Of a DNA stretch of 48,471 nucleotides, positions 15,074-37,033 are shown piece by piece. Below the pieces are notes generated by a model. That model saw only the letters and a list, made by a program, of their open reading frames with translations. It was not told the origin of the DNA and did no database searches. This DNA comes from Phycisphaerales bacterium (GTDB lineage Bacteria > Planctomycetota > Phycisphaerae > Sedimentisphaerales > Anaerobacaceae): the NCBI GenBank assembly GCA_030602885.1, contig JAUVYV010000026.1, forward strand, positions 1-48,471. Reading direction: 5' to 3'. Both the position numbers and the translations under genes were made by a program. The stretch's first letter is position 1. Each line of letters begins with the position of its first letter.

Positions 15074-15100
15074 GGTAGTCCGATTGAACCTGCCTTATAC

Positions 15101-19716: not shown

Positions 19717-19799
19717 AACTGTTCCTTTCGTCTGCGTTGTCACAAGAATTACTATTATAATGCCTGCCGGCACACATCCATACCACATTTTCCGCCCAT

Positions 19800-21122
19800 T
19801 TACAAGTGCCACGGGCTTCGCATGGGTCTTTTGAGCAGATTATTTGCCTCGTCATCGCCAACAAAGCTCTCTTTAGCGGGGTCCCACTTGAGCTTGCGTT
19901 TCAGGCGAACTGAGGTTTCTGCAATCATACCGAGGTACGAGGCCTTGTGGCCGGCCTCGACGGGAGAAACCGGGTCTTTTCGAGTTCTTACGCAGTTTAT
20001 GAAATCTTCATGGTGCTCTCTTGATTCATACAGATGGGTGTTTGACGGTTTAAGTTTGACCTCCAGCAGGGACTGCGGCTGTGCCTGGATGCCGTAGCGG
20101 TTGACGTGGACCCAGCCCTCGTCGCCTTTGAACAGGCACCCATCATTTTCATCGGTGCGTTCAACCGCGTCCGTGTAGAGCATTTTCAGGCCGCTCATAT
20201 AACGGAACTCGCCGCGCCAATCGTTGATGTTGTCCGTCAGGCCGTCGTTACGATAGCTGCCCGTGAACTCAAGCTCACAGGGCTGCGTCGCAACATCGGG
20301 ACAGCCCCAGACGGCAATATCCAGGTGATGCACGCCCCAGTTCACTATGAAACCGGCGCTATAGTCCCAGATGAGATACCAGTCGGGCCAGGCGATTCGA
20401 CCACCGTTGTAGGGTTTCATGGGAGCAGGGCCAAGGTACATCTCATAGTCGAGACCGAGCGGTATGGGCTGTTCGACGGGAGGTCTTTTGTATGTTCGCT
20501 TGTACACAGGCCCGGGTGCACCTACCCTTACGGTGTGTATTTTGCCGAGATAGCCGTTGCGAGCAAGCTCACAGGCGAAGCGGAAGTTGCGCTCGGAGCG
20601 CTGCTGCGTGCCGGTCTGGAAGATGCAGTTGTACTTTCGAACGGCATCGCGGATGGCCCGGCACTCGCTGACGGCAACACCCAATGGTTTTTCGCAGTAC
20701 ATATCCTTGCCGGCTTTTGCGGCGGCTACCGCAATTAGAGCATGCCAGTGGTCCTGGGTGGTGATGCACACTGCGTCTATGTCGTCGCGTGCGATGATGT
20801 CACGCCAGTCATTGTAGGCCTTGCAGTCCTGGTTCTTATAGATTGCATCGACGATGCTCTTTGCCTTTTCTCTTCTGTCTTTGACGACATCGCAAACGGC
20901 AACGACGCGAACATTTGGATTGCCGCAGAATACCTTCATATTGGCAGTTCCCTGGCCGCCGGTGCCGATAGAGGCCGTCACAATGCGCTCGCTGGCAGCA
21001 ACAGACCCATCCTTCCCCAATGCCGATGAGCAAACAAAGTAAGGAAAGGCAATTGAACCGGCAGCCGTTCCGACCGCTTTTGCCAGAAACGAACGTCTGC
21101 CTAAAACCTTATTACGTCTCAT
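19800..21122 (-). CDS. Tat-exported Gfo/Idh/MocA oxidoreductase (tandem copy A)
   Basis: 440 residues; twin Arg at 9-10 (GRRSFLAKAVG), followed by the cluster's shared FPY.V.SSALG stretch. Rossmann loop IGTGGQGTAN, catalytic Lys in YCEKPLGVAV, second site NWGVHHLDIAVWG, end RPMRSPWHL. Its closest relative in the window is the next gene upstream (21144-22463): the two share GFIVNWGVHHLDIA.WGCPDVA and CELEFTG.YRNDGLTDNI, and differ mainly in the substrate-side loops (MKPYNGGRIAWPDW against KKPFNGGRVYGIDW). They look like a tandem duplication with shifted specificity. AAGGAGGT at 21127-21134 is the best ribosome site in the cluster. Confidence 0.92.
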   Translation of the reverse strand: MRRNKVLGRRSFLAKAVGTAAGSIAFPYFVCSSALGKDGSVAASERIVTASIGTGGQGTANMKVFCGNPNVRVVAVCDVVKDRREKAKSIVDAIYKNQDCKAYNDWRDIIARDDIDAVCITTQDHWHALIAVAAAKAGKDMYCEKPLGVAVSECRAIRDAVRKYNCIFQTGTQQRSERNFRFACELARNGYLGKIHTVRVGAPGPVYKRTYKRPPVEQPIPLGLDYEMYLGPAPMKPYNGGRIAWPDWYLIWDYSAGFIVNWGVHHLDIAVWGCPDVATQPCELEFTGSYRNDGLTDNINDWRGEFRYMSGLKMLYTDAVERTDENDGCLFKGDEGWVHVNRYGIQAQPQSLLEVKLKPSNTHLYESREHHEDFINCVRTRKDPVSPVEAGHKASYLGMIAETSVRLKRKLKWDPAKESFVGDDEANNLLKRPMRSPWHL

Positions 21123-21143
21123 TATGGACCTCCTTAATAATGC

Positions 21144-22463
21144 CTATAAGTGCCATGGGCTGCGCATGGGTCTTGTGAGCAGATTATTTGCCTCCTCGTC
21201 ACCGACGAATCGTTCTTGAACGGTGTCCCATTTCAGCTTGCGTTTCAGGCGGACAGAGGTTTCGGCAATCATTCCGAGGAATGAGGCATTGTGACCGGCC
21301 TCGACCGGCGAGACCGGGTCTTTTCGCGTCTTGACACATCTGAGGAAATCCACCCTGTGGTCGTTTGATTCGTAAAGCCGATTGTCGGAGGATTTAAGCT
21401 GCACCTTCAGCAGGGAAGCAGGCTCTGCCCGGATTCCCGGACGATCTACATGTACCCAGCCTTTATCCCCATAGAAAGCGCACCCACACTCCTCAGTACC
21501 CTCATCCGCACTCGTGTAAACCATCTTTAATCCGTTTTCGTAACGAAACTCGCCTTTCCAGTCAAAGATATTGTCCGTCAGCCCGTCATTACGATAAGTC
21601 CCTGTAAACTCAAGCTCACACCGCTGATTTGCGACATCCGGGCAACCCCAGTTGGCGATATCCAGATGATGCACGCCCCAATTCACAATGAATCCCGCGC
21701 AATAGTCCCAGTTCAGATACCAGTCGATGCCGTAAACCCTGCCACCGTTGAAGGGCTTTTTCGGAGCCGGTCCGAGCCACATGTCCCAGTCAAAGCCGGG
21801 CGGAATTGGCTCCTCAACCGGTGGATTCAGGTATTCACGCTTGTACACCGGTCCAGGCGCACCGACTTCGACTGTATGGATCTTGCCGAGATATCCACTG
21901 CGCGCCAACTGACAGGCAAACCGAAAGTTTCTCTCGGACCTCTGCTGAGTACCGGTCTGAAACACTATCCCGTACTTGCGGACTGCATCGCGTATTGCCT
22001 GACTCTCTGCCACGGCGACCCCCAGCGGTTTTTCACAGTACATATCCTTGCCGGCCTGCGCCGCTGCAACTGCGATAAGGGCGTGCCAGTGGTCCTGCGT
22101 GGCGATGACAACGGCGTCGATATCGTCGCGAGCGAGCAGCTCGCGGAAGTCGTTGTACATAGCGCAGTCCGTATTGCCGTATTTCTCATCGACTATTCTT
22201 TTGGCCTTTTCACGTTCACTCTGCTGAACGTCGCAGACCGCAACCATCTGTGCGACGGGAATACCCAGAAAATCCTTCACCTTCCATGTCCCCTGCCCGC
22301 CGACACCGATTGAGCCGATAGTAATACGTTCGCTCGCCGCGACAGCCCCGTCTGCGCCAAGAGCCGACGCCGAAACTATGTAAGGGAATCCAACCGCACC
22401 GGCCAGCATTACGCCGGAGCCTTTGAGAAAACTTCGTCTGTCAAAACTTCTTTTCGCATTCAT
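21144..22463 (-). CDS. Tat-exported Gfo/Idh/MocA oxidoreductase (tandem copy B)
   Basis: 439 residues; twin Arg at 9-10 (DRRSFLKGSG), same position as in copy A. Rossmann loop IGVGGQGTWK, YCEKPLGVAV, NWGVHHLDIANWG, end RPMRSPWHL. A Cys pair (EECGCAF) stands where copy A has ENDGCLF. Only 21 bp separate it from copy A downstream, and 40 bp from the ThuA-like gene upstream, so the three are probably one transcript. On the + strand the gene is C-rich from about 21450 upward and more balanced below that. Confidence 0.92.
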   Translation of the reverse strand: MNAKRSFDRRSFLKGSGVMLAGAVGFPYIVSASALGADGAVAASERITIGSIGVGGQGTWKVKDFLGIPVAQMVAVCDVQQSEREKAKRIVDEKYGNTDCAMYNDFRELLARDDIDAVVIATQDHWHALIAVAAAQAGKDMYCEKPLGVAVAESQAIRDAVRKYGIVFQTGTQQRSERNFRFACQLARSGYLGKIHTVEVGAPGPVYKREYLNPPVEEPIPPGFDWDMWLGPAPKKPFNGGRVYGIDWYLNWDYCAGFIVNWGVHHLDIANWGCPDVANQRCELEFTGTYRNDGLTDNIFDWKGEFRYENGLKMVYTSADEGTEECGCAFYGDKGWVHVDRPGIRAEPASLLKVQLKSSDNRLYESNDHRVDFLRCVKTRKDPVSPVEAGHNASFLGMIAETSVRLKRKLKWDTVQERFVGDEEANNLLTRPMRSPWHL

Positions 22464-22503
22464 TTTTATATTCCGAGAACCTTTTCCCAGCTTGGTTCAT
22501 TTC

Positions 22504-23439
22504 TTAATCAGCCAATCGCGCATCACGCAATACAAGCTCGTCAAAACGGTATGGCGACTCGCCTGCGGCCCAGGCAGTCCCCCGCAGCAATAGAATCCGA
22601 AAATACGGGTCATCGAATGTCCAGGTGTAATGCCCCGGCTGACAGCCGAAGATGCGCCCCTTGCCATACTCGTACGTCCACAAGACCGGCTGCGGGGCGA
22701 TTTTATCTGAGTCCTTGTTTACTTTCTCATCGGAAGTAGCCAATACCCTCACCTTTTGCGTATCGATGCCAGGTACAGGTGGCCAATATGTCTCATCATA
22801 GAAATGAATACTCGTGGCAAGGCCAAGGCAAATCGGGTGCTCGGGTTCGGTAATCTTCATGTTCATCGGCCCGTGACGAAACAACTTATAGCCGCCAACC
22901 CCAAGCAATTCGGCGGCCTTGACGAAGTGCTTGGAATCGGGCCAGCTCGCCGGGTGCACAGGAACAAGACCGCCGCCTTTTTCTAAGTATTTGCGCATCT
23001 GCTCGAATCGCTCCTCGTTCCAGCGCAAATAGCAGAACGCCACTATCACGTCGGCCTCTGCAAACTGCTCTTCACTCAGCCAATGCCACGCAGTTGTCAC
23101 CGTGACATTAGCCGCGCCTTTGGATACGTCGGCATCGCCGACCGCAGGGCCGAACATGTTCGCCTGTTTCTCGCCCGACTGACCACTGCCTGCCAATAAG
23201 AGCTCCCACCGCTTTTGCCAGAGCGGATAGTCGTGCTCGTTTTCGCCGTGGTCCTTGACATCAGCAAGCAAAACAATGTTTAACTGTTTCAGTTCCTTCG
23301 CTTCGACTTTGGGCGCCTTTGCAAGAATCGCCTCTATCTCGCCGCGACCGGGCGCCTCCGGCGGCTCTGCAGCAACGGCAGACAGAGCCGTAGTCGAAAA
23401 CAGTGTGATTGAGAAAACTAATCTAAGTGTCACATTCAT
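22504..23439 (-). CDS. Exported ThuA-like protein, second type
   Basis: 311 residues with a Sec signal (1-23, ending VAAE). It belongs to the ThuA-like/class I amidotransferase fold but to a different branch from the gene at 18796: the opening is LNIVLLADVKDHGENEHDYP followed by LWQKRWELLL, and the core has ADVIVAFCYLRW, LEKGGGLVPVHPASWPD, HPICLG and GRIFGCQPGHYTWTF. The mid-domain His of VHPAS takes the place of GIHAA in the other branch. Probably binds or processes a sugar intermediate outside the cytoplasm (inference from neighbours). AAGGAC lies eight bases before ATG 23439; the gap to the next oxidoreductase gene upstream is 15 bp. Confidence 0.8.
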   Translation of the reverse strand: MNVTLRLVFSITLFSTTALSAVAAEPPEAPGRGEIEAILAKAPKVEAKELKQLNIVLLADVKDHGENEHDYPLWQKRWELLLAGSGQSGEKQANMFGPAVGDADVSKGAANVTVTTAWHWLSEEQFAEADVIVAFCYLRWNEERFEQMRKYLEKGGGLVPVHPASWPDSKHFVKAAELLGVGGYKLFRHGPMNMKITEPEHPICLGLATSIHFYDETYWPPVPGIDTQKVRVLATSDEKVNKDSDKIAPQPVLWTYEYGKGRIFGCQPGHYTWTFDDPYFRILLLRGTAWAAGESPYRFDELVLRDARLAD

Positions 23440-23454
23440 CGTCTTGTCCTTTTT

Positions 23455-24819
23455 CTATAAGTGCCACGGGCTTCGCATAGGCCTATCAAGCATCTGGCTT
23501 GCCTCCGGATCGTTAATAAAATCCTCCTTCTTCGGATCCCACTTCAGCTTGCGACCTAACTTGATTGCAATGTTGTCGATTTGGCATATCGTATCTGAAC
23601 GAACCGCAACCTCGACCGGGCAAATCGTCTTTGAGCCGGTCCGTATCGCATCAAGGAAATTACGCTGATGGTCCTCGCTGCGGGTAAGAATACCGGCCAC
23701 AGCATCTTCCTCCTGTAACAACGATTTCGGCTCCGCCTTAATCACGCCGCGTTTCACATAAACCCAACCCTCGCTGCCCTTGAACAACACTCCCTGATTG
23801 AACTCCCTGCGAACCTGCTCCGGATGCCTCTCACAGTTTGAGTTATCCATATGCACAACCGTAACGCCGTCCGCGAACCTGTTCTCGACCTGCCAGCTCA
23901 GCGCGTTATCCGCCAGCCCTTCGGTCGGGAAAACTCCCTTGCCCTCTATCTCTATCGGCCCTGTATCCTCGGTCCCATGTCCCCACTGAGCGATATCGAT
24001 ATGATGAATACCCCAGTTGTCAATAAACCCAAGACAGTAATCCGAGATGTGATACCAACTGCTGTAGTTCTGCGTCCAGTCCTTGTCGGGCCTGCTCACG
24101 TAAGGCCTGCACCGCTCAAAACTATGCGGCGCCCATGGAGCCGGGCCAAGCCACATGTCATAATCAAAACCCTTTGGTATCGGCTCGGTCGGTTGATTCG
24201 GAACAGTCACCCCACCGGGCACACCCACAAGGATCGTCTCCAGCTTTCCTATCTTGCCGCTGCGAACCAGTTCGCATGCGAACCGAAATTCCCTGTCCGA
24301 CCGCTGCTGAGTACCGAATTGAAACACAACTCCGGTCCGCTGGATTGTTTCCCTTATCACCTGTCCCGCCCTGAAACTCCATCCGATCGGTTTTTCATGA
24401 TACATGCCCTTGCCATTCTTAGCCGCCTCGATAGCTATCAACGCATGCCAGTGATCCGGAGTCGCTATAACGACAGCATCAATGTCACTGCGAGCGCAAA
24501 GTTCACGAAAATCCCCGTATGCCGAACAGCCCGAACCCTTGTAATACGTATCTACGGTACGCCTGGCCTTTTCTAACTGGCTCCGGCGAACATCACATAC
24601 CGCCGCCAACTGAACGTCCGGCTCCTGCATAAAATCGCTTAACAAGCCTGAGCCCTGGATCCCAAGACCAATGCTGCCCATCACTATTCGATTGCTTGCT
24701 GCGACCGTACCGGCCTTGCCAAGAGCCGACGAAGCAACAATATAGGGAAAATTCACTGCCGCCGCTGCACCCAGCGTACCGGCAAGAAAATCCCTTCTGT
24801 TTATCTTACTCGTTCTCAT
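23455..24819 (-). CDS. Tat-exported Gfo/Idh/MocA oxidoreductase (YHEKP variant)
   Basis: 454 residues; Tat signal NRRDFLAGTLG at 7-17. Rossmann loop IGLGIQGSG, catalytic Lys in MYHEKPIGWSF (Tyr-His replaces Tyr-Cys), second site NWGIHHIDIAQWG, end RPMRSPWHL. It carries an insertion of about 20 residues after WAPHSFERC (RPYVSRPDKDWTQNYSSWYH, residues around 235-255) that closes over the presumed active site and is missing from the tandem pair. Closest to the gene at 25747-27090, which has the same GTEDTGPIEIEG/GTDDTAPVEIEG region. The whole gene is C-rich on the + strand. Confidence 0.9.
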   Translation of the reverse strand: MRTSKINRRDFLAGTLGAAAAVNFPYIVASSALGKAGTVAASNRIVMGSIGLGIQGSGLLSDFMQEPDVQLAAVCDVRRSQLEKARRTVDTYYKGSGCSAYGDFRELCARSDIDAVVIATPDHWHALIAIEAAKNGKGMYHEKPIGWSFRAGQVIRETIQRTGVVFQFGTQQRSDREFRFACELVRSGKIGKLETILVGVPGGVTVPNQPTEPIPKGFDYDMWLGPAPWAPHSFERCRPYVSRPDKDWTQNYSSWYHISDYCLGFIDNWGIHHIDIAQWGHGTEDTGPIEIEGKGVFPTEGLADNALSWQVENRFADGVTVVHMDNSNCERHPEQVRREFNQGVLFKGSEGWVYVKRGVIKAEPKSLLQEEDAVAGILTRSEDHQRNFLDAIRTGSKTICPVEVAVRSDTICQIDNIAIKLGRKLKWDPKKEDFINDPEASQMLDRPMRSPWHL

Positions 24820-24843
24820 GGAGTAACCTTTCGTTCTCTGAAT

Positions 24844-25671
24844 CTAAACAAGCTTTTTCAGATGTTCCAGACTTCTCGCCGCCTGCTCCGGCGTGCCGCA
24901 CTCAACACTGAAAACTATATCACGCGGACACTTATCCTTTACAATCCCAACGACCTTCGCCCAGTCAATCACTCCGTCACCGCACGCACAGCCGACCGGC
25001 GTACCCGTGACCTTGCCCCTTTCGGCATCGGAATGTTCCACCGAGATGTCTTTTGCGTGAAGATGCACAAGGCGATCCGCCACACGTTCGAGCCAAGGAT
25101 AGACGTCCTGACCCGCCAGATACGCGTTGCCCGTATCGAAGTTGATGCCGATAGCCGGTGAATCGACAAGATTATAAAGCTTATCAAGCCCGTCCGGCGT
25201 CTTCGAATACTGTGCATGGTCTTCAAGCCCTATCTTAACACCGCGACGCTCAGCAACAAAGGCGGCTTCCCGTAGCGTGTATTTGATCAGTACCATGTCC
25301 TCTTCTTCAGTAGTCCACTTGGCCTTAACACCCTCGTCCGTATTTACCACACGCACACCGATCTCCGCCGCTACCCGGATCGCTAACTTAAGATATTCGC
25401 CGTGCACCTCAGGCCTGCCGAGTGGCCCGTGTGCCTGCAGACCCGATATCTTCAGCCCTGCCTTATCGCACGCCTCTTTGATGCGATACGGGTCATCGAA
25501 CATCGAGACGGTGTGAAAATACCCGGCCTCGCTCATCAACTCTCTGCCGAAGTGAATCATCGGTTCCACATACTCAAAACCAATCTCAGCAGTCTTCTCA
25601 ACAGCCCATTCGAACGGCTTATCCGAGCTGCGCGAAAATTCCGTGTTCAAACCAACACTAATCTTACCCAT
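24844..25671 (-). CDS. Sugar-phosphate isomerase/epimerase-type TIM barrel (cytoplasmic)
   Basis: 275 residues, no signal peptide. AP-endonuclease-2-like barrel of the type that includes xylose-isomerase-like and 3-keto-sugar epimerases. Metal-site candidates: Glu in KIGLEDHA, Asp in INFDTGNA, His in LHAKDI, Glu in FSVECG. The Cys-rich VGCACGDG loop (about 217-224) is unusual; similar barrels have a Gly-rich loop with one Cys or none. AAGGAGA ten bases before ATG 25671 supports the start. It lies between two exported oxidoreductases, 24 and 75 bp away, so its substrate would be an imported product of those enzymes. Confidence 0.85.
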   Translation of the reverse strand: MGKISVGLNTEFSRSSDKPFEWAVEKTAEIGFEYVEPMIHFGRELMSEAGYFHTVSMFDDPYRIKEACDKAGLKISGLQAHGPLGRPEVHGEYLKLAIRVAAEIGVRVVNTDEGVKAKWTTEEEDMVLIKYTLREAAFVAERRGVKIGLEDHAQYSKTPDGLDKLYNLVDSPAIGINFDTGNAYLAGQDVYPWLERVADRLVHLHAKDISVEHSDAERGKVTGTPVGCACGDGVIDWAKVVGIVKDKCPRDIVFSVECGTPEQAARSLEHLKKLV

Positions 25672-25746
25672 TTCGTAATCTCCTTTTAATGTTTTTGCCG
25701 TTATTGTTTTATAACACAGAAAGTCCGTTACAATTATGCCAAGCCG

Positions 25747-27090
25747 TTACAGCCGCCAGGGGCTTCGCATAGTTCGCGTTAACATTCGATTAGCCTCACC
25801 GTCGTTAATGAATTGTTCCCTCACCGCATCCCATCTCAACTTCCTTCCAAGGCGCAGGGCGATATTTCCCTGATGGCAGATTGTATCCGAATGGACCGCC
25901 ACGTCAACGGGGCAGATTGTCTGCCTTTTTGTCCTGACAGCATCGAGGAAATTACGCATGTGGTCGTTGCTGCGATATAGTTTTATTTCGTCGGGGCCGA
26001 TGACGGTTTTAGTCAGCGATTGCGGGTGGGTGTGGAGTCCACGTCGGCTGACGAAGACCCAGCCGTCGGTGCCGAGAAAGAGGATACCAAGACCTTCGTG
26101 CAGCCAGAACTGAGGGGCCTTTTGCCTGGCTGTTTTGGTGTCCATATGAACGAGTGTAACGCCGTTGGCGTATTTGTGTCTTACCTCAAATTGTATTGCC
26201 GTGTCGGTCAGGCCGTCGGCGGGAATGACTCCTGTTCCTTCTATTTCAACCGGTGCCGTATCGTCGGTGCCGTTGCCCCACTGGGCGATATCGACGTGGT
26301 GTATTCCCCAGCCGGAGATATGTCCCATTGCGTAGTCACTTATGACGTACCAGGCGCCGGCGCCTTCGGTGCGCGGACCGCAACGTGCGAAGCTGTACGG
26401 CGCCCGGGGGGCGGGGCCAAGCCAGAGGTCATAGTTGAAACCTTTCGGTATCGGTTCGGGCTTTGAATTGGGGACATACCAGCTCGGAATCGAGCCGACC
26501 ATAATCGTCCGGAGCTTGCCTATCCGCTGGTTGCGAACAAGCTCGCAGGCCTGGCGAAACTTCTCGTCGCTGCGCTGCTGGGTGCCGAACTGAAATACCA
26601 CGCCCGAACGATGTATTTCTTTTCGCAGCGCCTGGTTTTCATCGAAATAGACACTCATTGCCTTTTGCAGATAGACGTGTTTTCCATTGCGTGCCGCTTC
26701 AAGGCCGACCAGGACGTGCCAGTGGTCGCAGGTTGCGACGACGACGCCGTCGATGTCGCTTCTGGCGAGCAGGTCGCGAAAATCGGTGTATGCGGCGCAG
26801 TCGCTGTTTCCGTATTTTCTGTCAACGATCGCCTTGGCTTTCGTTTGTCGGATGGGCCAGATGTCACACACGGCTGCAAGGTGGACATCGGGATATCCGA
26901 GGAGCTGATGGACGTGGCCTGTACCCATACCTCCCACGCCGATAGAGCCGATTACGAGGCGATTGCTGGGCGCTATGGTTCCGGCTTTGCCCAGGGCAGA
27001 CGACGATACCACGTATGGAAACCCAACAGCGCCTGCTATGACTTTTGTCGCTTTTCTTAACACCGAACGACGACTGATAGTTTCCGCCAT
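25747..27090 (-). CDS. Tat-exported Gfo/Idh/MocA oxidoreductase with altered EKP motif
   Basis: 447 residues when started at ATG 27090 (MAETISRRSVLRKATK), which puts the twin Arg at 7-8. The frame is open 34 codons further but that would run into the upstream gene, whose stop is at 27095-27097, only four bases away. Rossmann loop IGVGGMGTGH. The usual YCEKP reads YLQKAM here: Lys143 stays but both flanking residues of EKP are changed. The preceding DHWH segment also has Cys for Pro (TCDHWH). Second site GWGIHHVDIAQWG, end RTMRSPWRL. The changes suggest altered chemistry or a binding role. The gene is tightly coupled to the four-domain protein upstream. Confidence 0.88.
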   Translation of the reverse strand: MAETISRRSVLRKATKVIAGAVGFPYVVSSSALGKAGTIAPSNRLVIGSIGVGGMGTGHVHQLLGYPDVHLAAVCDIWPIRQTKAKAIVDRKYGNSDCAAYTDFRDLLARSDIDGVVVATCDHWHVLVGLEAARNGKHVYLQKAMSVYFDENQALRKEIHRSGVVFQFGTQQRSDEKFRQACELVRNQRIGKLRTIMVGSIPSWYVPNSKPEPIPKGFNYDLWLGPAPRAPYSFARCGPRTEGAGAWYVISDYAMGHISGWGIHHVDIAQWGNGTDDTAPVEIEGTGVIPADGLTDTAIQFEVRHKYANGVTLVHMDTKTARQKAPQFWLHEGLGILFLGTDGWVFVSRRGLHTHPQSLTKTVIGPDEIKLYRSNDHMRNFLDAVRTKRQTICPVDVAVHSDTICHQGNIALRLGRKLRWDAVREQFINDGEANRMLTRTMRSPWRL

Positions 27091-27094
27091 AAGT

Positions 27095-30000
27095 TCAATC
27101 CGCCAATTCCAAAGCCGTTTGCTCGAAGAAATCAATGCATTTTGCGATATCGGGCATGGAGTTGTCCCAGTTGTATTCGTATTCGATTGCAATGGTCCCG
27201 CGGAAATTTTGACGCTTCAGCTCAGCCAGAACAGCAGGGACATTTGCTTTACCCGTCCCCCAGGGGATATCGTGTGCCCTGAGATTGCCAAGCTCGTTGA
27301 GGTCCTTTAAGTGCAACGATATGATTCTTCCCTCGAGAGTTTTCAGCCCCTCAACGGGGTCGATACCGGATCGCATCCAGTGACCTGTATCGGCGCAGGC
27401 GCCGATTCGTCTGCTCCGGCCCTGACAGACTTTCAAGACTTCAGCCGGGTCCCAGTATCGGGACTCACCTTTGGCGTGGTTATGTATCGCTAAGTTCATC
27501 TCATACTCGCTGCAGAGCTTCTCTAACATATCGAGCCGGTTGGGGTCGGGCTCCGAAACGAATGTCTCGATACCCATCTCTCGTGCGAAATCGAATATCT
27601 TTCTGCACTGTTTCTCTTGTTTCGGCCAGGCGCCGATGTAGCAGTTGATGATTCTTATTCCGGCGTCACTGAGCTTGCCTCTGACTTCTCTGCGGAGCTT
27701 TGCGGGCATCAGGTAGCTAAACAATATGCGCTTATCATCATTGGTCAGACGCTGGCCTGCTCTGGGACCAAAGATGTAGGCCTCGATGTTTCTAAGACCG
27801 AGTTGAGAGGCCTTTTCAATAGATTCGTTAAACGAGAATCTGTTGAACGACCAGAACTGCACTGCGAGGTTGAAGCCGAGCTTTTCCTGTGCGCGGACCG
27901 CATCTGTAAGCTTCCCGCTCGGCGTTGTCGAAGCGGGCAAATCGCCCAACGCAAACTGTATCGCCGCAAGAAAATGCTCGAGGAACATCTCGTCCCAGAA
28001 CACATACGGATTATGCCCTATCGTCGTGTAATAGACTCGGCCTGCACCGTGGCTCTTGACCCAGGCGAGTGGATAGTCGTTGTCGTCGCGAAAGCAGTTG
28101 CCGTAAGCGCGTCCCTGCTCCATATCCGTCTTGTCAACGTCGATACTGAACAGCACACGAACATTGTCTCTCGAATAGATTTCGTGGAATCGGAAAAACT
28201 CATCTGTGAATTCGAATCCTTTTCCGGCGAAGCCGGCGTTGAGTGGGTGGGTCGGATCGTCGAGTTTGGTCGTCACTGTCTCGTCACTCTCTCTGTGGTT
28301 TGCACCGAATGTTCCCAACATCTTAGAGTATTCGGCAAAGTCCATTGTCCAGCCCGGCTGCTTGGCAAAGCCGACACTTGCAGCGTGATTGCCGAGCACC
28401 CCCCCACCGCGATAGACAAAGTCCAGCAGATTCTGCCTCAGCTCTTCGCTGTTAAAGCTATCGCCAACCGTATTATTAAAGAAAACCGCATCAAACTCAC
28501 TCAGCTTATCCGCCTCGAAATACGCTGGATCCTCGGTCACAACCGTCTCATAAGCCCCTAATCTTTCCCCCATCAACTCAACGGCATAATTGGCGTGCGG
28601 GACCGAGGGATGCTTGCCATGACCGACACTTTTGTCGAAGACCAGCAGTCGTCTGGGCTTTTTCGGTGTGGCCGGCGCTTTTGCGGGAATTGCATTTTCG
28701 ATTTTCCGCTGCTCCTCATCACTGACGCCAGCTTGGCGTCTTACCCCTTTTGTTCGGCCAATGTATGCACGGTGATAGCTCACGATTGGAGCAATTATCT
28801 TATCAAAAAATTTGATGGACTGGGCAATTTGCTTTGTGTTGTCTTCGAAATCGTAAGCGTACTCGATGTTCCAGAGCGTAGGGTTGATTTCAAGCTCGTA
28901 GGCCTTCTTGAAGAACTCATCGAGTTTGGCCACACCGGCCCCCCAGGGGACATCGTGGCCCTGTGGACTGAACTCGTGCACATCGTGAATATGGAAGGTG
29001 ATGACTCGGTCCTTCATTTTCTCTAAGGTTTCAACCGGGTCGTACCCCGCCCGCACCCAGTAGCCCAGGTCCGGGCAGACACCCATTCGTCTGCTCCTGC
29101 CTTTGAGGACCTTGAGGATGTTGTTCGGGTCGTAGTAGAATGGAGATATGTCTTTGGTGTGATTGTGGATGGCGAGGTTGATGTCGTATTTGTCACAGTA
29201 TTTTTCCAGAAGGTCGAGCACCTCCGGTTCCGGCTCGCCGGTGATCGTTTCCACACCTAATTTCCTGCAGAATTCGAAAAGTTTTTTCACCATCTGCTCG
29301 TCATTCGGTATCTTATGAACGTAGTAGCAGACCATCCGAACATCCGAGTCGAGCAGCTTCCTTCGCAACGCAATGACCTCATCATCGCCCATATTAAAGT
29401 CAGGCCCACCCTCGATATATCGCAGCCCCAGCGCCGCGGTCTTCTCAATTGCCTCGTCAAACGAGTATTCCTTAAAGCTGTACGCACCAATTCCCAGACG
29501 CCAATCGAGGGTCTCCCGAGCGCGAACGGCGCCGGTGAGTTTGGCGCTCGGGGTCGTGGGGGCGGGCAGGTCGCCGAGGGCAAACTGTGTCCCGTCGAGC
29601 AAGTGCTTGAGGAACAGCGGATTCCAGAAGGTCTCGGCGTTGTGACCGAAGGCAGTGAAGAAGACACGTCCCCTGCCGTAGTTCTTCACCCAACTGAATG
29701 GGAAGTCCTTGTCCTTCTGGCGTTCAGGCAAGAACCTACGACTCGGGCTCATATCCATCTTGGCCGTGTCGATGCTTACGAGCACGCGCAGCTTGTCTCG
29801 TGAGTAGCCGTGGCGGAACTGAAAGGCCTGGTCTGTTATCTCGAAGCCCTTTCGCCCAAAGGCGGCGTTGACGGGATGCTCGGGGTCATCGATCTTGATG
29901 GCGATTGTCTCGTGCGCCTGCCAGGGGTGGCCTCCGTCTTCGTAGCCGCCGAGCATCTCGCCAAACTCAGGCCAGAAGTGATAATCGGGCCACTGCGCAA

Positions 30001-30454
30001 ATGTCGCCGCTACGGCGTGAATGCCGATGAAGCCGCCGCCGCCATAGACAAAATCAAGCAGACTTTTCTTCAACTGCGGGTCTTCAAAAAGCACGCCCAC
30101 CGTATTATTGAAGCAGACAGCATCGAACTGCTTTATATTTTCCGGTTTGAACATCTCAATATCGTTGCTGACGACCGTCTCGTAGGCGCCGGTTTTTTCG
30201 CCCATAAGCTCGATGGCATAATTGCTGCAGGGTATCGAGGCATGGCCTTTTACGACTTTGCCGTCCCTGACATTGAGGTTGACGACGAGCAGCTTTCTCG
30301 GCTTTTGCGGTTTGGCAGACGCTTTTCGGGGTATCGCCTTTTGGATTTTTTCGCGTTCGCCGGCTGTTACCTGGGCAAATACACAGTCGCCGAACATCGC
30401 AGCTAACAGAATTGCGAACAGGATGACGTTGATGATTTGCGTTTTTCGGTTCAT
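27095..30454 (-). CDS. Four-domain exported protein: ThuA - TIM barrel - ThuA - TIM barrel
   Basis: 1,119 residues in one uninterrupted frame. Sec signal 1-27 (ending CVFAQ). ThuA domain 1 at about 53-296 (FDAVCFNNTVG, FIGIHAVAATFAQWP); isomerase/epimerase barrel 1 at 318-560; ThuA domain 2 at 600-838 (FDAVFFNNTVG, VLGNHAASVGFAKQP); barrel 2 at 859-1119. Each half starts with the same kind of linker (IQKAIPRKASAKPQKPRK, IENAIPAKAPATPKKPRR) and the same ThuA-to-barrel joint (QFALGDLPA.TTPS.KLT.AVRA), so the gene arose by internal duplication of a two-domain unit. Barrel 2 keeps the metal-type motif ADTGHW (Asp1022, His1025); barrel 1 has PDLGYW (Asp462, Tyr465) and FHIHD for LHLKD, so it may be inactive or differently specific. 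AAAGGAG lies before ATG 30454. Confidence 0.88.
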   Translation of the reverse strand: MNRKTQIINVILFAILLAAMFGDCVFAQVTAGEREKIQKAIPRKASAKPQKPRKLLVVNLNVRDGKVVKGHASIPCSNYAIELMGEKTGAYETVVSNDIEMFKPENIKQFDAVCFNNTVGVLFEDPQLKKSLLDFVYGGGGFIGIHAVAATFAQWPDYHFWPEFGEMLGGYEDGGHPWQAHETIAIKIDDPEHPVNAAFGRKGFEITDQAFQFRHGYSRDKLRVLVSIDTAKMDMSPSRRFLPERQKDKDFPFSWVKNYGRGRVFFTAFGHNAETFWNPLFLKHLLDGTQFALGDLPAPTTPSAKLTGAVRARETLDWRLGIGAYSFKEYSFDEAIEKTAALGLRYIEGGPDFNMGDDEVIALRRKLLDSDVRMVCYYVHKIPNDEQMVKKLFEFCRKLGVETITGEPEPEVLDLLEKYCDKYDINLAIHNHTKDISPFYYDPNNILKVLKGRSRRMGVCPDLGYWVRAGYDPVETLEKMKDRVITFHIHDVHEFSPQGHDVPWGAGVAKLDEFFKKAYELEINPTLWNIEYAYDFEDNTKQIAQSIKFFDKIIAPIVSYHRAYIGRTKGVRRQAGVSDEEQRKIENAIPAKAPATPKKPRRLLVFDKSVGHGKHPSVPHANYAVELMGERLGAYETVVTEDPAYFEADKLSEFDAVFFNNTVGDSFNSEELRQNLLDFVYRGGGVLGNHAASVGFAKQPGWTMDFAEYSKMLGTFGANHRESDETVTTKLDDPTHPLNAGFAGKGFEFTDEFFRFHEIYSRDNVRVLFSIDVDKTDMEQGRAYGNCFRDDNDYPLAWVKSHGAGRVYYTTIGHNPYVFWDEMFLEHFLAAIQFALGDLPASTTPSGKLTDAVRAQEKLGFNLAVQFWSFNRFSFNESIEKASQLGLRNIEAYIFGPRAGQRLTNDDKRILFSYLMPAKLRREVRGKLSDAGIRIINCYIGAWPKQEKQCRKIFDFAREMGIETFVSEPDPNRLDMLEKLCSEYEMNLAIHNHAKGESRYWDPAEVLKVCQGRSRRIGACADTGHWMRSGIDPVEGLKTLEGRIISLHLKDLNELGNLRAHDIPWGTGKANVPAVLAELKRQNFRGTIAIEYEYNWDNSMPDIAKCIDFFEQTALELAD

Positions 30455-30488
30455 TTTTGCCGGCTCCTTTCGAGAATAATGATTTTTG

Positions 30489-31802
30489 TTATAAGTGCCA
30501 CGGACTTCTCATCGGTCGGCCGAGCATTTCGTTGGCGGTCGGGTCATCGATGATAGTTTCTGTTTTCGGGTCGAACTTTATTCTGCGCCCTAACAGCATC
30601 GATATCTGTCCCAAATGTCCGGGTATGGCAGAGTGGTGTGCGACTTCGCAGGGTGTGATGGTGGGCCTGCGGGTTTTTATACAGTCGAGGAAATTGCGAT
30701 GGTGCTCCGGCGAACGGTATAACTGAATATCGTTCGGGCCGAACGTCTCTTTAAGCAGGCCCGATGGCTCGGCATCGACCCTTTCTCTATTGACCCACAC
30801 CCAGCCATCCTCACCTATCCACTTCGTCCCCCCTCGCAGCCCCACACTACCGCCAAGCACCATCTCAACACCATTGGCGTACCTGCAGATTACTCGATAC
30901 TTCGTCGCGGTGTTCCAAAGACCCGTCTTTGGATACTCGCCCTTACCATCAACCTCTACCGGGGCCTCATAATCCATCCCAAGCCCCCAGTGTGCGATGT
31001 CCCCATGATGCCCTATCCAATCCATTATCTGACCGCCCCCGTAATCCAGATGCCATCGCCAGTTCTTATGAACTCTCGCAACCGCATACGGTGCATACGG
31101 TGCCGGACCGAGCCAGAAGTCGTAATCGAGTTCGGGCGGTGGTGGCTCAATCTTCTCTTGACCTTTAGTACCGGCAAAGTCAGTGTGTCCGCCCGGCAGA
31201 CCCACCTCTACTCGCTGGATTTTCCCGATCCTCCCGTTGCGGACGAGCATACATGCAAAGCGGAAGTTTGCAACCGATCGCTGCCAGCTTCCGGTCTGCC
31301 AGATTCGGTTGTACCGTTTGACCGCCTCGCACATCGCCCGGCCTTCACGAAGCGTATGCGACAGCGGCTTTTCGCTATATATGTCTTTGCCCGCCCTGGC
31401 GGCTTCAATTGCAGGTATCCCATGCCAGTGGTCCGGCACACCCAGCGACACTGCATCGATGTCGTTTCGTGCCAGCAGCTCACGGAAATCATGATATGTC
31501 GCACAATCCTTGTTGCCGTACTTCTCGTTTACGAGCCGGGCTGCGTTGTTCAAGTGATTTTTGTCGAGGTCACAAACGGCAATAATCCGTGCGTCGCCCT
31601 CGTTGAGGAAACTTTGAAGGTTTTCAGTCCCCATCCACCCCGTCCCGATACAACCGAGCGTGATGCGGTTGCTCGGCGCAACAGTTCCTGCAGCACCCGG
31701 GGCCGACGGCGAGACGATATAGGGAAAGCCGAATGCGACTGCCAACGTTCCGGCAGTCTTCTTTAGAAAACGGCGTCGGTTAACTTTCTGACCTTTTGTC
31801 AT
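30489..31802 (-). CDS. Tat-exported Gfo/Idh/MocA oxidoreductase
   Basis: 437 residues; Tat signal with three Arg in a row (NRRRFLKKTAG, 8-18). Rossmann loop IGTGWMGTEN, catalytic Lys in YSEKPLSHTL (Ser for Cys), second site DWIGHHGDIAHWG, in which Ile-Gly-His replaces Gly-Ala/Val-His. Ends RPMRSPWHL. The loop GLPGGHTDFAGTKGQEKIE (around 225-243) has no counterpart in the other copies and probably lines the substrate pocket. Gap of 34 bp to the four-domain protein downstream and 27 bp to the next oxidoreductase upstream. The stretch 30790-31200 is much more C-rich on the + strand than the gene's two ends. Confidence 0.9.
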   Translation of the reverse strand: MTKGQKVNRRRFLKKTAGTLAVAFGFPYIVSPSAPGAAGTVAPSNRITLGCIGTGWMGTENLQSFLNEGDARIIAVCDLDKNHLNNAARLVNEKYGNKDCATYHDFRELLARNDIDAVSLGVPDHWHGIPAIEAARAGKDIYSEKPLSHTLREGRAMCEAVKRYNRIWQTGSWQRSVANFRFACMLVRNGRIGKIQRVEVGLPGGHTDFAGTKGQEKIEPPPPELDYDFWLGPAPYAPYAVARVHKNWRWHLDYGGGQIMDWIGHHGDIAHWGLGMDYEAPVEVDGKGEYPKTGLWNTATKYRVICRYANGVEMVLGGSVGLRGGTKWIGEDGWVWVNRERVDAEPSGLLKETFGPNDIQLYRSPEHHRNFLDCIKTRRPTITPCEVAHHSAIPGHLGQISMLLGRRIKFDPKTETIIDDPTANEMLGRPMRSPWHL

Positions 31803-31829
31803 AAACTAAGGTTCCTTGAACTATGTCTG

Positions 31830-33092
31830 TTACAAATGCCGGGGGCTTCGCATTGTCCTTGCAGAAAACTTCTCGGCCTCATGGTCATCTACGAAGTGTT
31901 CGCTGGCCGGTTCCCATTTGAGCGGCCTGTTGAGACGATAGGCAATGTTGCCCAGATGGCAGACGGTAACGGAGCGGTGACCGGTCTCGACATCGGCCAC
32001 CGGTTTTCTGCGTGAGCGGATACATTCGAAGAAATTCGCCTTGTGGTCGCTGCTGTAATACAGGCGCTTCTCGTTCGGACTTATCTTGTGCAGAGCCAGT
32101 GGACGCGGCTTTGTACGGAGCCAGTCGCGGTGCATTTCGACTTCGCCGTCCGTGCCGATTACCCTCACGGAATACTCGCTGTAATCTGCCGGCTCTCTGC
32201 GAACCATCGTGACTCCGTTTGAATAAACGAAGCTGATTTCGCGCGTCCCGTCGGGCGGATAAATTTCGACCGGGCCGCTGTTGTCCATACCGAGAGCCCA
32301 CTGGACGATATCGAAATGGTGGGCCCCCCAGTCCGTTACCGATCCGCCGGAGTAATCCCAGTAGCTTCGCCATCTTCGGAATATAGTGTAGTTGTAAGCT
32401 CTCAGTGGCGCCTGCCCGAGCCACATCTCCCAGTCGAGCCCCTCACGGACCGGCTCAGCCGGCAGGTCACAGTCACCCGCATGGCCGTGAACTCCAACGA
32501 CTATATGTTTGACCTGGCCGATATACCCGTTGCGTACAAGCTCACAGCCGTGACGAAAGTAGTAGCCGCTGCGCTGCTGGCTGCCCGTCTGGAAAACGCG
32601 ACCGTAACGCCTCACTGCATTGACCATAGCCCTGCCTTCGCCAATGGTTAGTGTCATTGGCTTTTCGCAGTAGATGTCCTTGCCTGCTTCAGCGGCCCTG
32701 ATTGCAGCTATCGCGTGCCAGTGGTCCGGCGTCGCAATAATAACTGCATCGATATCGTCCCTTGCCAACAGCTCTCTGAAGTCACGATAAGCGGCGCAAT
32801 CACTGTTGCCGTAAGCTTCGTTTACCCTGCCACACGCACGTTCTCTCCGCTCGGTATCAACGTCACAAACCGCAAGGACCTTTGCTTGCTCTCTTGAAAG
32901 ACAATCACGCAGGTGCCCCCCGCCCATCCCCCCTACGCCGATAGACCCGATTGTAATACGATTGCTGGGGGCGGTGCCGCCCGATTTGCCCAGCGCACTT
33001 GAAGGTACGATATACGGAAAGCCAAGGGCCGCTGCCGTCGCGGTAACGTTTTGTAGAAACTTACGTCTATTCATTTGCATCGCAGGCGGCAT
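31830..33092 (-). CDS. Tat-exported Gfo/Idh/MocA oxidoreductase (short copy)
   Basis: 420 residues, the shortest exported copy. Tat signal NRRKFLQNVTATAA. The start is uncertain: ATG at 33092, 33080 and 33074 are all in frame and none has a clear ribosome site; 33074 would give MNRRKF, as in the two genes upstream. Rossmann loop IGVGGMGGGH, YCEKPMTLTI, second site DWGAHHFDIVQWA, end RTMRSPRHL (Arg for the near-invariant Trp). The segment after the Lys motif has YYFRHGCEL where others have F RFACEL. Its ThuB-like layout is otherwise standard. Confidence 0.9.
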   Translation of the reverse strand: MPPAMQMNRRKFLQNVTATAAALGFPYIVPSSALGKSGGTAPSNRITIGSIGVGGMGGGHLRDCLSREQAKVLAVCDVDTERRERACGRVNEAYGNSDCAAYRDFRELLARDDIDAVIIATPDHWHAIAAIRAAEAGKDIYCEKPMTLTIGEGRAMVNAVRRYGRVFQTGSQQRSGYYFRHGCELVRNGYIGQVKHIVVGVHGHAGDCDLPAEPVREGLDWEMWLGQAPLRAYNYTIFRRWRSYWDYSGGSVTDWGAHHFDIVQWALGMDNSGPVEIYPPDGTREISFVYSNGVTMVRREPADYSEYSVRVIGTDGEVEMHRDWLRTKPRPLALHKISPNEKRLYYSSDHKANFFECIRSRRKPVADVETGHRSVTVCHLGNIAYRLNRPLKWEPASEHFVDDHEAEKFSARTMRSPRHL

Positions 33093-33119
33093 TGCAGCCG
33101 CTCAAAGAATAATAACATT

Positions 33120-34448
33120 TTACAGATGCCAGGGACTTCGCATAGGCCTGGCCAACATCCGATTCGCTTCATCATCATTCGTAATTTGCTCTCGCCTGGG
33201 ATCCCAGGCGAGTTTCTTGCCGGTCAGCATAGCAATATTGATAAGGTGACATATAGTGCCCGTTCTCTGGCCTACCTCTGCCGGTGCGAACGGCTGGGTT
33301 CGGCTTCTCACGGAGTTAAGGAAATTCTCATGATGGCTCGCAGTTCTGCCGAGAGTGATTTCGTTCGGACCAATCTGCTCTCGCAGCAGCGATTTCGGCT
33401 CGGCTTCGAGGCGACCGCCGTGTATGTGGACAAAAATCCAGCCGTCGGCGCCCTCGAACTTGATACCCCTGGGGGTTTTGCTTACACCCAGCAGGCGGAC
33501 GCCGTTAGCGTACTGACATTCAAATTGAAATTTGTAGAACGTGTCGAAAAGACTGTTCTCAGGCCTTCTGCCGCGACCTGACAGCTCAACCGGGCCGCTG
33601 CTGTCGGCATCATTACTCAGTTGGGCAAGGTCAAGAATGTGGGCGCCTCTGTCGGTCATTTCGCCGCCAGAGTAATCAAGAATATAGCGAAAACTGCCGT
33701 GACAGCGCTTCCGCGTATAAGCAACCCAGGGGGTATGACCGAGCCACATATCGTAATCGAACCCCTTGGGGACAGGCATAACCGGTTGAGGGGGCAGTAT
33801 TCCGTGCTCGACGGGCATATTGACTCGAATGGTCTGGAGCTTGCCGATATAACCGTTGCGCACCAATTCGGCGGCAAAACGGACGCTGTCGTTTGAGCGC
33901 TCATGGCTGCCTGTTTGAAGGATTCGTCCGTATCGCTTCACGGCTTCACACACCGCCCTGCCCTCGGCGATAGTGTTGGTGAGGGGTTTCTCGCAATAGA
34001 TGTCCTTGCCGGCCTTGGCCGCAGCAATACTTATCACACCGTGCCAGTGGTCGGGAGTACAGACCGTTACGGCATCGATATCGTCGCGGGCCAACAGCTC
34101 GCGGAAATCGTTATAGGTCGCGCAGTCGCGATTGTTGTACCTTTTGTTGACGATATCTCCTGCTCTGGTGCGGTGTTTTGTATCTACATCGCAGACGGCA
34201 ACAACCTGGACGCTTGATTTTGAAAGTTTCGGCGCATTTGCCACGTACCAGACCTGTTCGACGGCGCCAAGGAAGGCCTTGAGATTATAAGTACCCTGGC
34301 CGCCGACCCCGATGCACCCCATGACAATACGGTTGCTTGGTGCAACAGTGCCTGCACTTCCGAGAACCGATGAGCCGACAAGACAGGGAAACGCCAGCCC
34401 CCCTGCTGCCGCACGCGCTGCAGTTTTTAAGAAACTACGCCTGTTCAT
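33120..34448 (-). CDS. Tat-exported Gfo/Idh/MocA oxidoreductase (second tandem pair, copy A)
   Basis: 442 residues; starts MNRRSFLKTAARAAAGG. Rossmann loop IGVGGQGTYN, then an insertion in the first Rossmann half (VEQVWYVANAPKLSKSS, about 64-80) shared only in part with its neighbour. Catalytic Lys in YCEKPLTNTI; second site DRGAHILDLAQLS; end RPMRSPWHL. It pairs with the next gene upstream (34493-35866): both have the Lys motif YCEKPL.NTIAEGRAVC, SHERSNDSVRFAAELVRNGY, EMTDRGAHI.DLAQL and GWIF.HIHGGRL. This is a second duplicated pair, distinct from the one at 19800-22463. Confidence 0.92.
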   Translation of the reverse strand: MNRRSFLKTAARAAAGGLAFPCLVGSSVLGSAGTVAPSNRIVMGCIGVGGQGTYNLKAFLGAVEQVWYVANAPKLSKSSVQVVAVCDVDTKHRTRAGDIVNKRYNNRDCATYNDFRELLARDDIDAVTVCTPDHWHGVISIAAAKAGKDIYCEKPLTNTIAEGRAVCEAVKRYGRILQTGSHERSNDSVRFAAELVRNGYIGKLQTIRVNMPVEHGILPPQPVMPVPKGFDYDMWLGHTPWVAYTRKRCHGSFRYILDYSGGEMTDRGAHILDLAQLSNDADSSGPVELSGRGRRPENSLFDTFYKFQFECQYANGVRLLGVSKTPRGIKFEGADGWIFVHIHGGRLEAEPKSLLREQIGPNEITLGRTASHHENFLNSVRSRTQPFAPAEVGQRTGTICHLINIAMLTGKKLAWDPRREQITNDDEANRMLARPMRSPWHL

Positions 34449-34492
34449 ATCACCACGTCCGGCGGCGTTGCCGCCGAAAAAAACACAGTGTA

Positions 34493-35866
34493 TTAAAGAT
34501 ACCAGGGACTTCGCATAGGCCTTGAGAGCATGCTGTTCGCCTCAGCATCATTCGTTATTTCTTCTTTGACCGGATCCCAGACGAGCTTTTTCTCGGTGAG
34601 CATCGCGATGTTCAGCAGATGGCAGATGGTGGCAGTTCTGTGACCAATCTCAGCCGAAGCGACAGGTTGTTTCCTCGCCTTTACCGAATCGATGAAGTTC
34701 TGGTGATGTCCCGGGCTGCGCCCGAGATGCAGTTCGCCGGGAGCGATAGACTGCTGCAGCAAAGATTCCGGCTGAGCTTTGAGGCGGCCGCCATGTATGT
34801 GAATAAAAATCCAGCCGTCACTTCCTTCGAACTTCAACCCTCTCGGGTCTCTGCTTGAGCCAATCAGACGTACGCCGTTTGCATATTTGCACTCGAAGTC
34901 GTACTGCATGAAGGCGTCAAAGATGCCCGAAGCAGGCGACTTGCCTCTGCCTTCGAGCTCTATCGGGCCGCTATCGTCGGCATCGTTGCCAAGCTGTGCA
35001 AGGTCGATGATGTGGGCGCCGCGGTCGGTCATCTCGCCCCCGCCATACGTCAAGATGAAACGCCACCAAAAGTGACTTCGGTACTTCGTGTATGGCATTT
35101 CCGGCGTCGGCCCAAGCCACATATCGTAGTCCAGACTCTTGGGAACCTCCATGACGGGCTGTGCCTCGGTCATAGTCAGAATCTTCCTGTGGTGTGGGTC
35201 GGAGTTCGGCATGTTCACTCTGATTGTGTGGAGCTTGCCTATGTAGCCGTTGCGAACAAGTTCGGCGGCAAAACGCACGCTGTCGTTGGAGCGCTCATGA
35301 CTGCCGGTCTGGAGGATACGTCCTTGTTTCTCGACGGCGTCGCACACCGCCCTGCCTTCGGCAATAGTGTTGACCAGTGGCTTTTCACAGTAGATGTCTT
35401 TGCCTGCCTCGGCGGCGGCTACACTGATTAGTCCATGCCAGTGATCGGGGGTGCAAACGGCAACGGCATCGATGTCGTCACGCTCGAGCAGTTGCCGAAA
35501 GTCACCGTAGGCCTCACAGCCGCCGTAATCACCTGTCGGAGACTCGCCGGCATAATACTCCTTAACAACCCTTCGTGCAGGATTCAAACCGGCGACTTGC
35601 CCTCCGTGGTAAAGGTCGCTGCCTTTCTCAACATCACAGACGGCGACAACCTGCACTCCGGGAATTCTCAGAAAGGCCCGCATATTGCCCGTCCCCTGCG
35701 GGCCGACACCAATACAGCCCATCACTATCCGATTGCTTGGGGACACCGTTCCGGTCTTGCCAGGGGCCGACGACGCCACCAGATAAGGAAAACCCACACT
35801 GCCCAACACCACGCCGCTTCCGCCCTTGAGAAACGTGCGCCGATTCATTTTATTGCTCATCGTCAC
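34493..35866 (-). CDS. Tat-exported Gfo/Idh/MocA oxidoreductase (second tandem pair, copy B)
   Basis: 457 residues; Tat signal NRRTFLKGGSG at 8-18 after a short lead (MTMSNKM). AAGGGG lies six bases before ATG 35866. Rossmann loop IGVGPQGTGN, an insertion SDLYHGGQVAGLNPARR (about 82-98) at a place where copy A is shorter, YCEKPLVNTI, DRGAHIIDLAQLG, end RPMRSPWYL. An extra loop NSDPHHRKILTMTEAQ (around 230-245) has two adjacent His and may reshape the pocket. First of the run of ten exported oxidoreductases when read in the direction of transcription. Confidence 0.92.
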   Translation of the reverse strand: MTMSNKMNRRTFLKGGSGVVLGSVGFPYLVASSAPGKTGTVSPSNRIVMGCIGVGPQGTGNMRAFLRIPGVQVVAVCDVEKGSDLYHGGQVAGLNPARRVVKEYYAGESPTGDYGGCEAYGDFRQLLERDDIDAVAVCTPDHWHGLISVAAAEAGKDIYCEKPLVNTIAEGRAVCDAVEKQGRILQTGSHERSNDSVRFAAELVRNGYIGKLHTIRVNMPNSDPHHRKILTMTEAQPVMEVPKSLDYDMWLGPTPEMPYTKYRSHFWWRFILTYGGGEMTDRGAHIIDLAQLGNDADDSGPIELEGRGKSPASGIFDAFMQYDFECKYANGVRLIGSSRDPRGLKFEGSDGWIFIHIHGGRLKAQPESLLQQSIAPGELHLGRSPGHHQNFIDSVKARKQPVASAEIGHRTATICHLLNIAMLTEKKLVWDPVKEEITNDAEANSMLSRPMRSPWYL

Positions 35867-35893
35867 CCCTTCTGATTGCTGCCGTAAAATCGA

Positions 35894-36892
35894 CTATCGG
35901 TCGAACTGGGCATCGAACGCAACAGCCGACGGCTTGAAATCGACGCCTTTTACGAACTCGCAGGCCTCTCTTGCACCGTGCTCACGGTCCATTCGGCTGT
36001 CTTCCCACTCAACCGAGAGCGGACCCTGATATCCGATATCGTTAAGAGCGACTATTATCTCCTCGAAGTTGATGTCGCCGTGGCCGAGCGAACGGAAGTC
36101 CCAGTAGCGGCGAGGGTCGGCAAAATCGGTATGCCCGCCGAAAACTCCCACAGTTCCGTCACCGTGACCCCACCAGACGTCCTTCATGTGGGTATGGAAA
36201 ATGCGGTCGCCGAACGTTCGGATGAATTTGACATAGTCAACGCCCTGATAACCGAGGTGGCTCGGGTCGTAGTTGAAACCGAACGACTCGTGACCGTTGA
36301 CCGCCTCGACGGCCCGCTGGGCTGAAGCGATGTCAAAAGCGATTTCAGTGGGGTGAACCTCAAGAGCAAACCTGATGCCTTCAGCCCTGAACGCATCGAG
36401 AATTGGCGTCCAGCGTTTTGCGAAGTCATCGTAGCCGGCCTGGATTGCATCGGGCGAGGCCGGCGGGAACGAATAAAGCAGATGCCATATCGAGCTTCCG
36501 GTGAATCCGTTGACGACATTGACTCCGAGCTTCTTGGCGGCCTTGGCTGTGTCGATGACCTTCTTGGCTGCGCGCTCTCGCACGCCGTCGGGGTCACCGT
36601 CTCCCCAGACATCTTCAGGCAGTATCGATTTGTGACGCTCGTCGATATTGTCACAAACCGCCTGACAGACTAAGTGCGTCGAAATCGCATACACCTCCAG
36701 CCCAAGCTTCTTGAGCATCTTAATCTTCGCCTTGCAGTAGCTCTCGTCAACAAGCGCCTTATCCACCTCGAAATGGTCACCCCAGCACGCTAATTCGAGC
36801 CCGTCATAGCCCCAGCTTGCGGCCTTTTTGGCCAGCTCCTCAAGAGCCAGGTCTGCCCACTGTCCGGTAAAGAGTGTAACAGGTCTTGCCAT
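35894..36892 (-). CDS. Sugar-phosphate isomerase/epimerase-type TIM barrel (cytoplasmic)
   Basis: 332 residues from ATG 36892 (AAGGGG seven bases upstream); the frame continues 16 codons 5' without support. No signal peptide. Metal-type ligands: Glu in [12 protein letters not shown], Asp/His in [11 protein letters not shown], His in [15 protein letters not shown], Glu in [12 protein letters not shown]. The [14 protein letters not shown] loop and closing [16 protein letters not shown] mark a subfamily that in planctomycetes is typically found beside a cytoplasmic Gfo/Idh/MocA enzyme, and here such a gene (37034-38206) lies directly upstream. Together they could epimerise or isomerise imported keto-sugars. 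Inference on substrate only. Confidence 0.87.
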
Positions 36893-37033
36893 AGTCAATC
36901 CCCTTTTCTTTAAATAGATGGCGTTATTTAAAAAATTCAAACATCAAAATTACATTGCAAAATGCAAAATGTTTTAGAATCTTTGAATTTTGATTTGTAA
37001 TTTTGCACTTTGATTTTTAATTTTTGATTTTTT

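Follow-up and report, generated by a model that had tools for sequence, protein, structure and literature searches.

The question raised by this locus is how a single bacterial protein came to carry the domain order ThuA-barrel-ThuA-barrel, and what such a chain may do. It is encoded in the 48,471-nucleotide stretch of planctomycete DNA analysed here (referred to as the window), where a complete open reading frame on the reverse strand (27095..30454, ATG start, stop codon at 27095-27097) specifies 1,119 amino acids and on translation contains no internal stop. Pfam detected ThuA (PF06283) in two stretches of the full chain (2.2e-74, 250.6 bits vs. a cut-off of 33.4), each of which passes the cut-off alone (132.6 and 126.6 bits), as well as two stretches of the xylose isomerase-like barrel PF01261, AP_endonuc_2 (3e-34, 119.3 bits vs. 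a cut-off of 31.1). Together with the comparison of the single domains, this bears out the order read from the sequence in the first-pass annotation.

The chain begins with a Sec-type signal peptide, judged by eye (residues 1-28, MNRKTQIINVILFAILLAAMFGDCVFAQ, 30371..30454). It is followed by the first ThuA domain, T1 (residues 29-304, 29543..30370; Pfam and tree), which retains the motif GGHPW, and the first TIM barrel, B1 (residues 305-555, 28790..29542; tree, model and alignment). A linker of about residues 556-576 (28727..28789) leads to the second ThuA domain, T2 (residues 577-847, 27914..28726; tree and alignment), which has GANHRES instead of GGHPW, and to the second TIM barrel, B2 (residues 848-1119, 27098..27913; alignment to the Agrobacterium enzyme AtOGE and model). 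All of these features lie on the reverse strand.

The first-pass annotation had pointed out that such an architecture might result from two genes joined by sequencing or assembly. In favour of an artefact, the four-domain chain was seen in one genome only, an assembly of 128 contigs, with no second copy. However, the two halves share no exact DNA match longer than 13 nucleotides, so there is no repeat that could have confused an assembler. The gene is located in the middle of its 48-kb contig and its codon composition resembles that of its neighbours (GC3 of 0.62-0.65 in three of the four quarters and 0.71 in T1; 0.61-0.63 in the neighbouring genes). The stretch from B1 to T2 contains neither a stop codon nor a Tat-like leader of the kind present on nearly all single fusions of a T2-type with a B1-type domain. 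Since the natural pairings are T2-B1 and T1-B2, an ordinary join of two genes would not yield T1-B1-T2-B2. As far as can be judged, an artefact is therefore highly improbable. A supposed relic of a Tat signal in the linker (GRTKGVRRQAG, found by eye) was too weak to be claimed. The linker region also carries a perfect palindrome with a 7-bp stem (GACGCCAAGCTGGCGTC, 28724-28740), which occurs once in the whole genome and whose hairpin is not significant; a mobile repeat was rejected, as no further significant copy of the linker DNA was found.

The protein had been described as duplicated, and a simple tandem duplication of one ThuA-barrel gene within the lineage would explain that both halves have the same domain order, similar linkers and joints, and 47% identity over 523 aligned residues (ThuA pair 51%, barrel pair 43%). 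The linkers PQKPRK and PKKPRR and the joints QFALGDLPA.TTPS named in support are indeed present, the joints being found at residue 290 (T1/B1, QFALGDLPAPTTPSAKLTGAVRARE..., 29501..29587, reverse strand) and residue 833 (T2/B2, QFALGDLPASTTPSGKLTDAVRAQE..., 27872..27958, reverse strand). Similar joints and linkers occur, however, in single ThuA-barrel fusions and in solo ThuA proteins too, so that these motifs are features of the family and not marks of a recent doubling. Third-position identity is not elevated at the joint, which speaks against recent duplication or gene conversion there.

Phylogenetic trees of both domain families speak against duplication more directly. In the ThuA tree, the sister group of T2 is formed by the ThuA domains of the planctomycete T2-B1 fusions (support 100/99), and T1 groups with solo ThuA proteins (69% identity to L063) and a fusion from a KSB1 bacterium (86/90). 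The barrels of these planctomycete fusions likewise come out as sister to B1 in the barrel tree (100/99). B2 is found outside this clade and apart from the KSB1 barrel, branching near the base with weak support; by path or identity its nearest relatives are solo and DUF1080-type barrels, and the KSB1 barrel too is among those that it lies nearer to. When T1 and T2 were forced to be sisters, the resulting tree was rejected (p 4e-5), and so was the one in which B1 and B2 were forced together (p 0.02). The term "duplicated" is thus misleading, and with sister halves rejected for both domains, tandem duplication within the lineage is very unlikely. To judge from the sequences, the chain is a combination of two old and distinct ThuA-barrel lineages.

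A plausible course of events would be that a gene of the T1-B2 type took up a T2-B1-type unit in interleaved fashion at the conserved ThuA-barrel joint, giving T1-[B1-T2]-B2. The inserted B1-T2 segment could have come from a tandem repeat or a circle of a T2-B1 gene, a recombination route that we infer. The presumed donor type is well represented: T2-B1 fusions of Planctomycetota (e.g. L009, L010, L058) consist of the same two domains and joint as found in the four-domain chain, with T2 mostly 53-62% and B1 about 50% identical to its counterparts, and they adjoin a Gfo/Idh/MocA gene where this was checked (L178, L179). They differ from the four-domain protein in having two domains, a Tat-like signal, a Gln in strand 7 and a Gfo partner of another subfamily. 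The four-domain protein is accordingly not a member of this group, as only its B1 and T2 fall into those clades. The presumed host type, the T1-B2 pairing, is known from a single KSB1 genome (L070). This fusion of 586 amino acids has a T1 63% and a B2 54% identical to the domains described here, and its flanking Gfo genes and HEAT gene find their best matches in the gene cluster of our window; it differs in having two domains, in belonging to another phylum and in occurring only once.

Two further features agree with a host gene of the T1-B2 type. Leaders are Sec-like in the solo T1-type relatives and in the KSB1 fusion, and Tat-like (TRRDFL) in nearly all T2-B1 fusions; the Sec-type leader of the four-domain protein thus fits the T1 lineage. 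The position of the gene fits as well, because the dehydrogenase gene located downstream resembles the neighbours of T1 genes and not those of T2-B1 fusions. Of all Gfo genes in the cluster, it comes closest both to those beside solo T1 genes (59% and 56%) and to the gene that follows the KSB1 T1-B2 fusion (52%), whereas no Gfo in the cluster is more than 41% identical to the Gfo partners of T2-B1 fusions.

How unusual is this architecture? ThuA and isomerase barrels had been regarded in the first-pass annotation as separate proteins and the double fusion as unfamiliar. The second part of this statement holds, as the four-domain order was detected only here: no second chain of this kind was present among about 1,100 genomes searched, including 161 genomes of the order that were queried with the B1-T2 junction itself, and none turned up in the named-genome collection, where the scan extends only to close relatives. 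The first part has to be corrected. Two-domain ThuA-barrel fusions of about 575 amino acids are widespread in Planctomycetota. Within the same family approximately 17 of 45 genera have them; they were also found in further families of the order and class (f7, f13, f16, f17) and, more distantly in the phylum, in a few others. A single one was seen outside Planctomycetota, the KSB1 fusion. ThuA-barrel fusion as such is therefore not new, and only the four-domain chain is peculiar. A literature search retrieved no description of ThuA-barrel fusions, and the interleaved chain of four domains is apparently both new and confined to this lineage.

In seven T2-B1 fusions of mostly 500-560 amino acids (L048, L049, L064, L065, L067-L069), only the first part of the barrel aligns, and in L048 no barrel is detected by Pfam. 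Two larger proteins contain several ThuA domains, i.e. a protein of 1079 amino acids with a formylglycine-generating-enzyme-like domain and two tandem ThuAs (G000:C92, L053:4861-8097), and one of 1383 amino acids combining ThuA-barrel, Fib_succ_major, a second distant ThuA and DUF6807 (L038:867-5015, G059).

The structure prediction suggested in the first-pass annotation was run with AlphaFold for each half separately, because MAFFT placed fragments of B1 on B2 and fragments of T2 on T1. Both halves gave confident models (T1-B1: pLDDT 91.4, pTM 0.91; T2-B2: pLDDT 95.5, pTM 0.92), in which B1 forms a full barrel. In Foldseek searches, 3p6l was the best solved relative of both barrels (target TM 0.89 and 0.92). 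Together with 4kw2 and 3lmz this structure (BDI_1903), annotated as sugar phosphate isomerase/epimerase of Parabacteroides distasonis, represents the closest solved barrels, all of them single-domain and uncharacterised. The closest solved ThuA folds are the ThuA-like structures 4jqs (TM 0.75), 4pxy and 4e5v, which are single-domain proteins with about 20% identity. The many barrels matched at lower ranks include the hydratase AtHYD (8ro4), by fold only, and the Alistipes 3-keto-glucopyranoside lyase AL1.

A further comparison is offered by AtOGE (8bvk), the 3-keto-O-glycoside beta-eliminase of Agrobacterium. In this TIM barrel, His132, Asp163, His189 and, weakly, Glu233 bind the metal and His134 is essential; the H189A mutant retains less than 0.1% activity and the H134A mutant none (PMC10628242). 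Direct alignment places H991, H993, D1022 and H1048 of B2 on His132, His134, Asp163 and His189, so four positions of the site are conserved; E1091 of B2 is located on strand 8. AtOGE differs in being a single domain without ThuA partner, and its E-value to B2 is only 0.0037. The AtOGE-like site, with metal ligands on strands 5, 6 and 7 and the base His on strand 5, is thus present in B2, and the same letters recur in B1 (H430, H432, D462, H488, E531). At neighbouring positions B1 has Tyr465 in place of His and His490 in place of Lys, and its loop after strand 2 is shorter. The sampled T2-B1 single fusions share the Tyr and the His with B1. These fusions, however, have Gln instead of the strand-7 metal His and Gly instead of the strand-2 Glu, whereas B1 of the four-domain protein keeps the His and the Glu. 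Matches to the NCBIfam families for L-ribulose-5-phosphate 3-epimerase, IolE and others all scored well under the respective cut-offs (e.g. 55 vs. 290 bits). From their sequence, both barrels would have a competent site, whose residues do not fix the reaction, and the superfamily also includes epimerases and dehydratases. As the two barrels resemble each other more than either resembles AtOGE or AtHYD, a division into eliminase and hydratase is not derivable from the sequence.

The ThuA protein of the thuEFGKAB operon has a role, with ThuB, in trehalose utilization via 3-keto sugars. For the four-domain protein, hints on the function come from the gene neighbourhood. In the window, its gene belongs to a run of closely spaced genes, all on the reverse strand (11524..38221), that code for Gfo/Idh/MocA, ThuA, barrel, DUF1080 and HEAT proteins. 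It is flanked by two Gfo/Idh/MocA dehydrogenase genes with Tat-like starts on the same strand, one upstream at a distance of 34 bp (30489..31802) and one downstream (25747..27087; the listed ORF begins with TTG at 27192, a start at about 27087 being likely). Many such dehydrogenases are encoded in the run, most of them carrying a Tat-like leader, along with two further ThuAs, stand-alone barrels, one HEAT protein and two DUF1080 (PF06439) domains. One of the latter, a 3-keto-disaccharide hydrolase domain according to its Pfam family, is fused to a PF01261 barrel in a protein of 484 amino acids (11524-12978, reverse strand), whose close relatives, compared in the barrel part, are barrel proteins of about 480 amino acids from other genomes (L033, L034, L036, L071, L076); another protein of 1114 amino acids (L052, G037) carries two DUF1080 stretches and a barrel. 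Upstream of the sugar cluster, a type I phosphodiesterase / nucleotide pyrophosphatase with a Tat leader is encoded (39662-41692, reverse strand).

A DUF1080 protein has been identified as 3-ketotrehalose hydrolase (PMC9007349). In the levoglucosan pathway, LgdB1 carries out an elimination and LgdB2 the subsequent hydration, both being annotated as sugar phosphate isomerases (PMC7676230), and AtOGE and AtHYD form a parallel elimination-hydration pair (PMC10628242). With these precedents, the neighbouring Gfo/Idh/MocA and DUF1080 genes favour a role in the cleavage of 3-ketoglycosides. We propose, with about even confidence, that the protein is exported and takes part in breaking down 3-ketoglycosides, uniting two different ThuA-barrel enzymes in one chain; its activity and export are inferred. 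The surrounding Tat-exported dehydrogenases would oxidise C3 of the glycoside. B2, with its AtOGE-like metal site and catalytic His, may then beta-eliminate the aglycone or the next sugar to leave a 2-hydroxy-3-keto-glycal. B1, which represents a diverged subfamily and combines an unchanged ligand set with the Tyr and His exchanges, could either hydrate the product as the next step or carry out the elimination on a different substrate. ThuA domains are recurrent partners of these barrels. Since the known pathways use two different proteins of the superfamily, elimination being followed by hydration (PMC7676230, PMC10628242), two consecutive steps in one chain are plausible, and these two steps are the ones most likely to be coupled. 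LgdB1/LgdB2 and AtOGE/AtHYD resemble this proposal in that two proteins act in succession and dehydrogenases are encoded alongside; they differ in being separate proteins without ThuA, and in the case of LgdB the likeness is by description. At L176:7668-8549 (G710), in another genome, a fusion of T2-B1 type is followed after 18 bp by a barrel gene of its own, diverged and with a Tat-like start, possibly the unfused counterpart of two cooperating barrels. It would go considerably further, and we think it improbable, that the interleaved protein is a lineage-specific enzyme channelling the unstable 2-hydroxy-3-keto-glycal from eliminase to hydratase barrel, with ThuA as an obligatory, hitherto unrecognised component of the cleavage of 3-ketoglycosides.

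Alternatively, the two barrels might share one reaction, either 3-keto beta-elimination or epimerisation, and differ in the sugar or anomer that they act on; the fusion would then provide broader specificity or a fixed stoichiometry without handover. The barrels belong to one subfamily with 3p6l as best solved relative and have the same ligand set, and the further separate barrels, ThuAs and DUF1080s in the window would be expected if many substrates are degraded. Tyr465 and His490 of B1, both common to the T2-B1 fusions, and the shortened strand-2 loop are nevertheless more than an adjustment of specificity might need, and we consider parallel substrates possible at a somewhat low probability. 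It is also conceivable that the T2-B1-type module has a mainly structural role, with its catalysis lost or changed, and serves T1 and B2 as a scaffold or sugar-binding subunit. The exchanges of metal His and strand-2 Glu in the sampled single fusions point in this direction, as do the eroded barrels of several other fusions, which align over no more than their first 100-160 residues or escape detection by Pfam. In the four-domain protein, however, B1 retains His and Glu, and its model shows a complete barrel, which makes a structural role here rather unlikely.

Although the ThuA family is common, a literature search found no description of its chemistry. ThuA has been fused repeatedly, in two lineages and beside Gfo/Idh/MocA genes, to barrels of the 3-keto sugar type, which ties it physically to the cleavage of glycosides by oxidation, elimination and hydration. 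The interleaved chain would represent a clear case of domain shuffling at a conserved joint, and the ThuA-barrel fusions may offer a concrete route to testing the role of ThuA.
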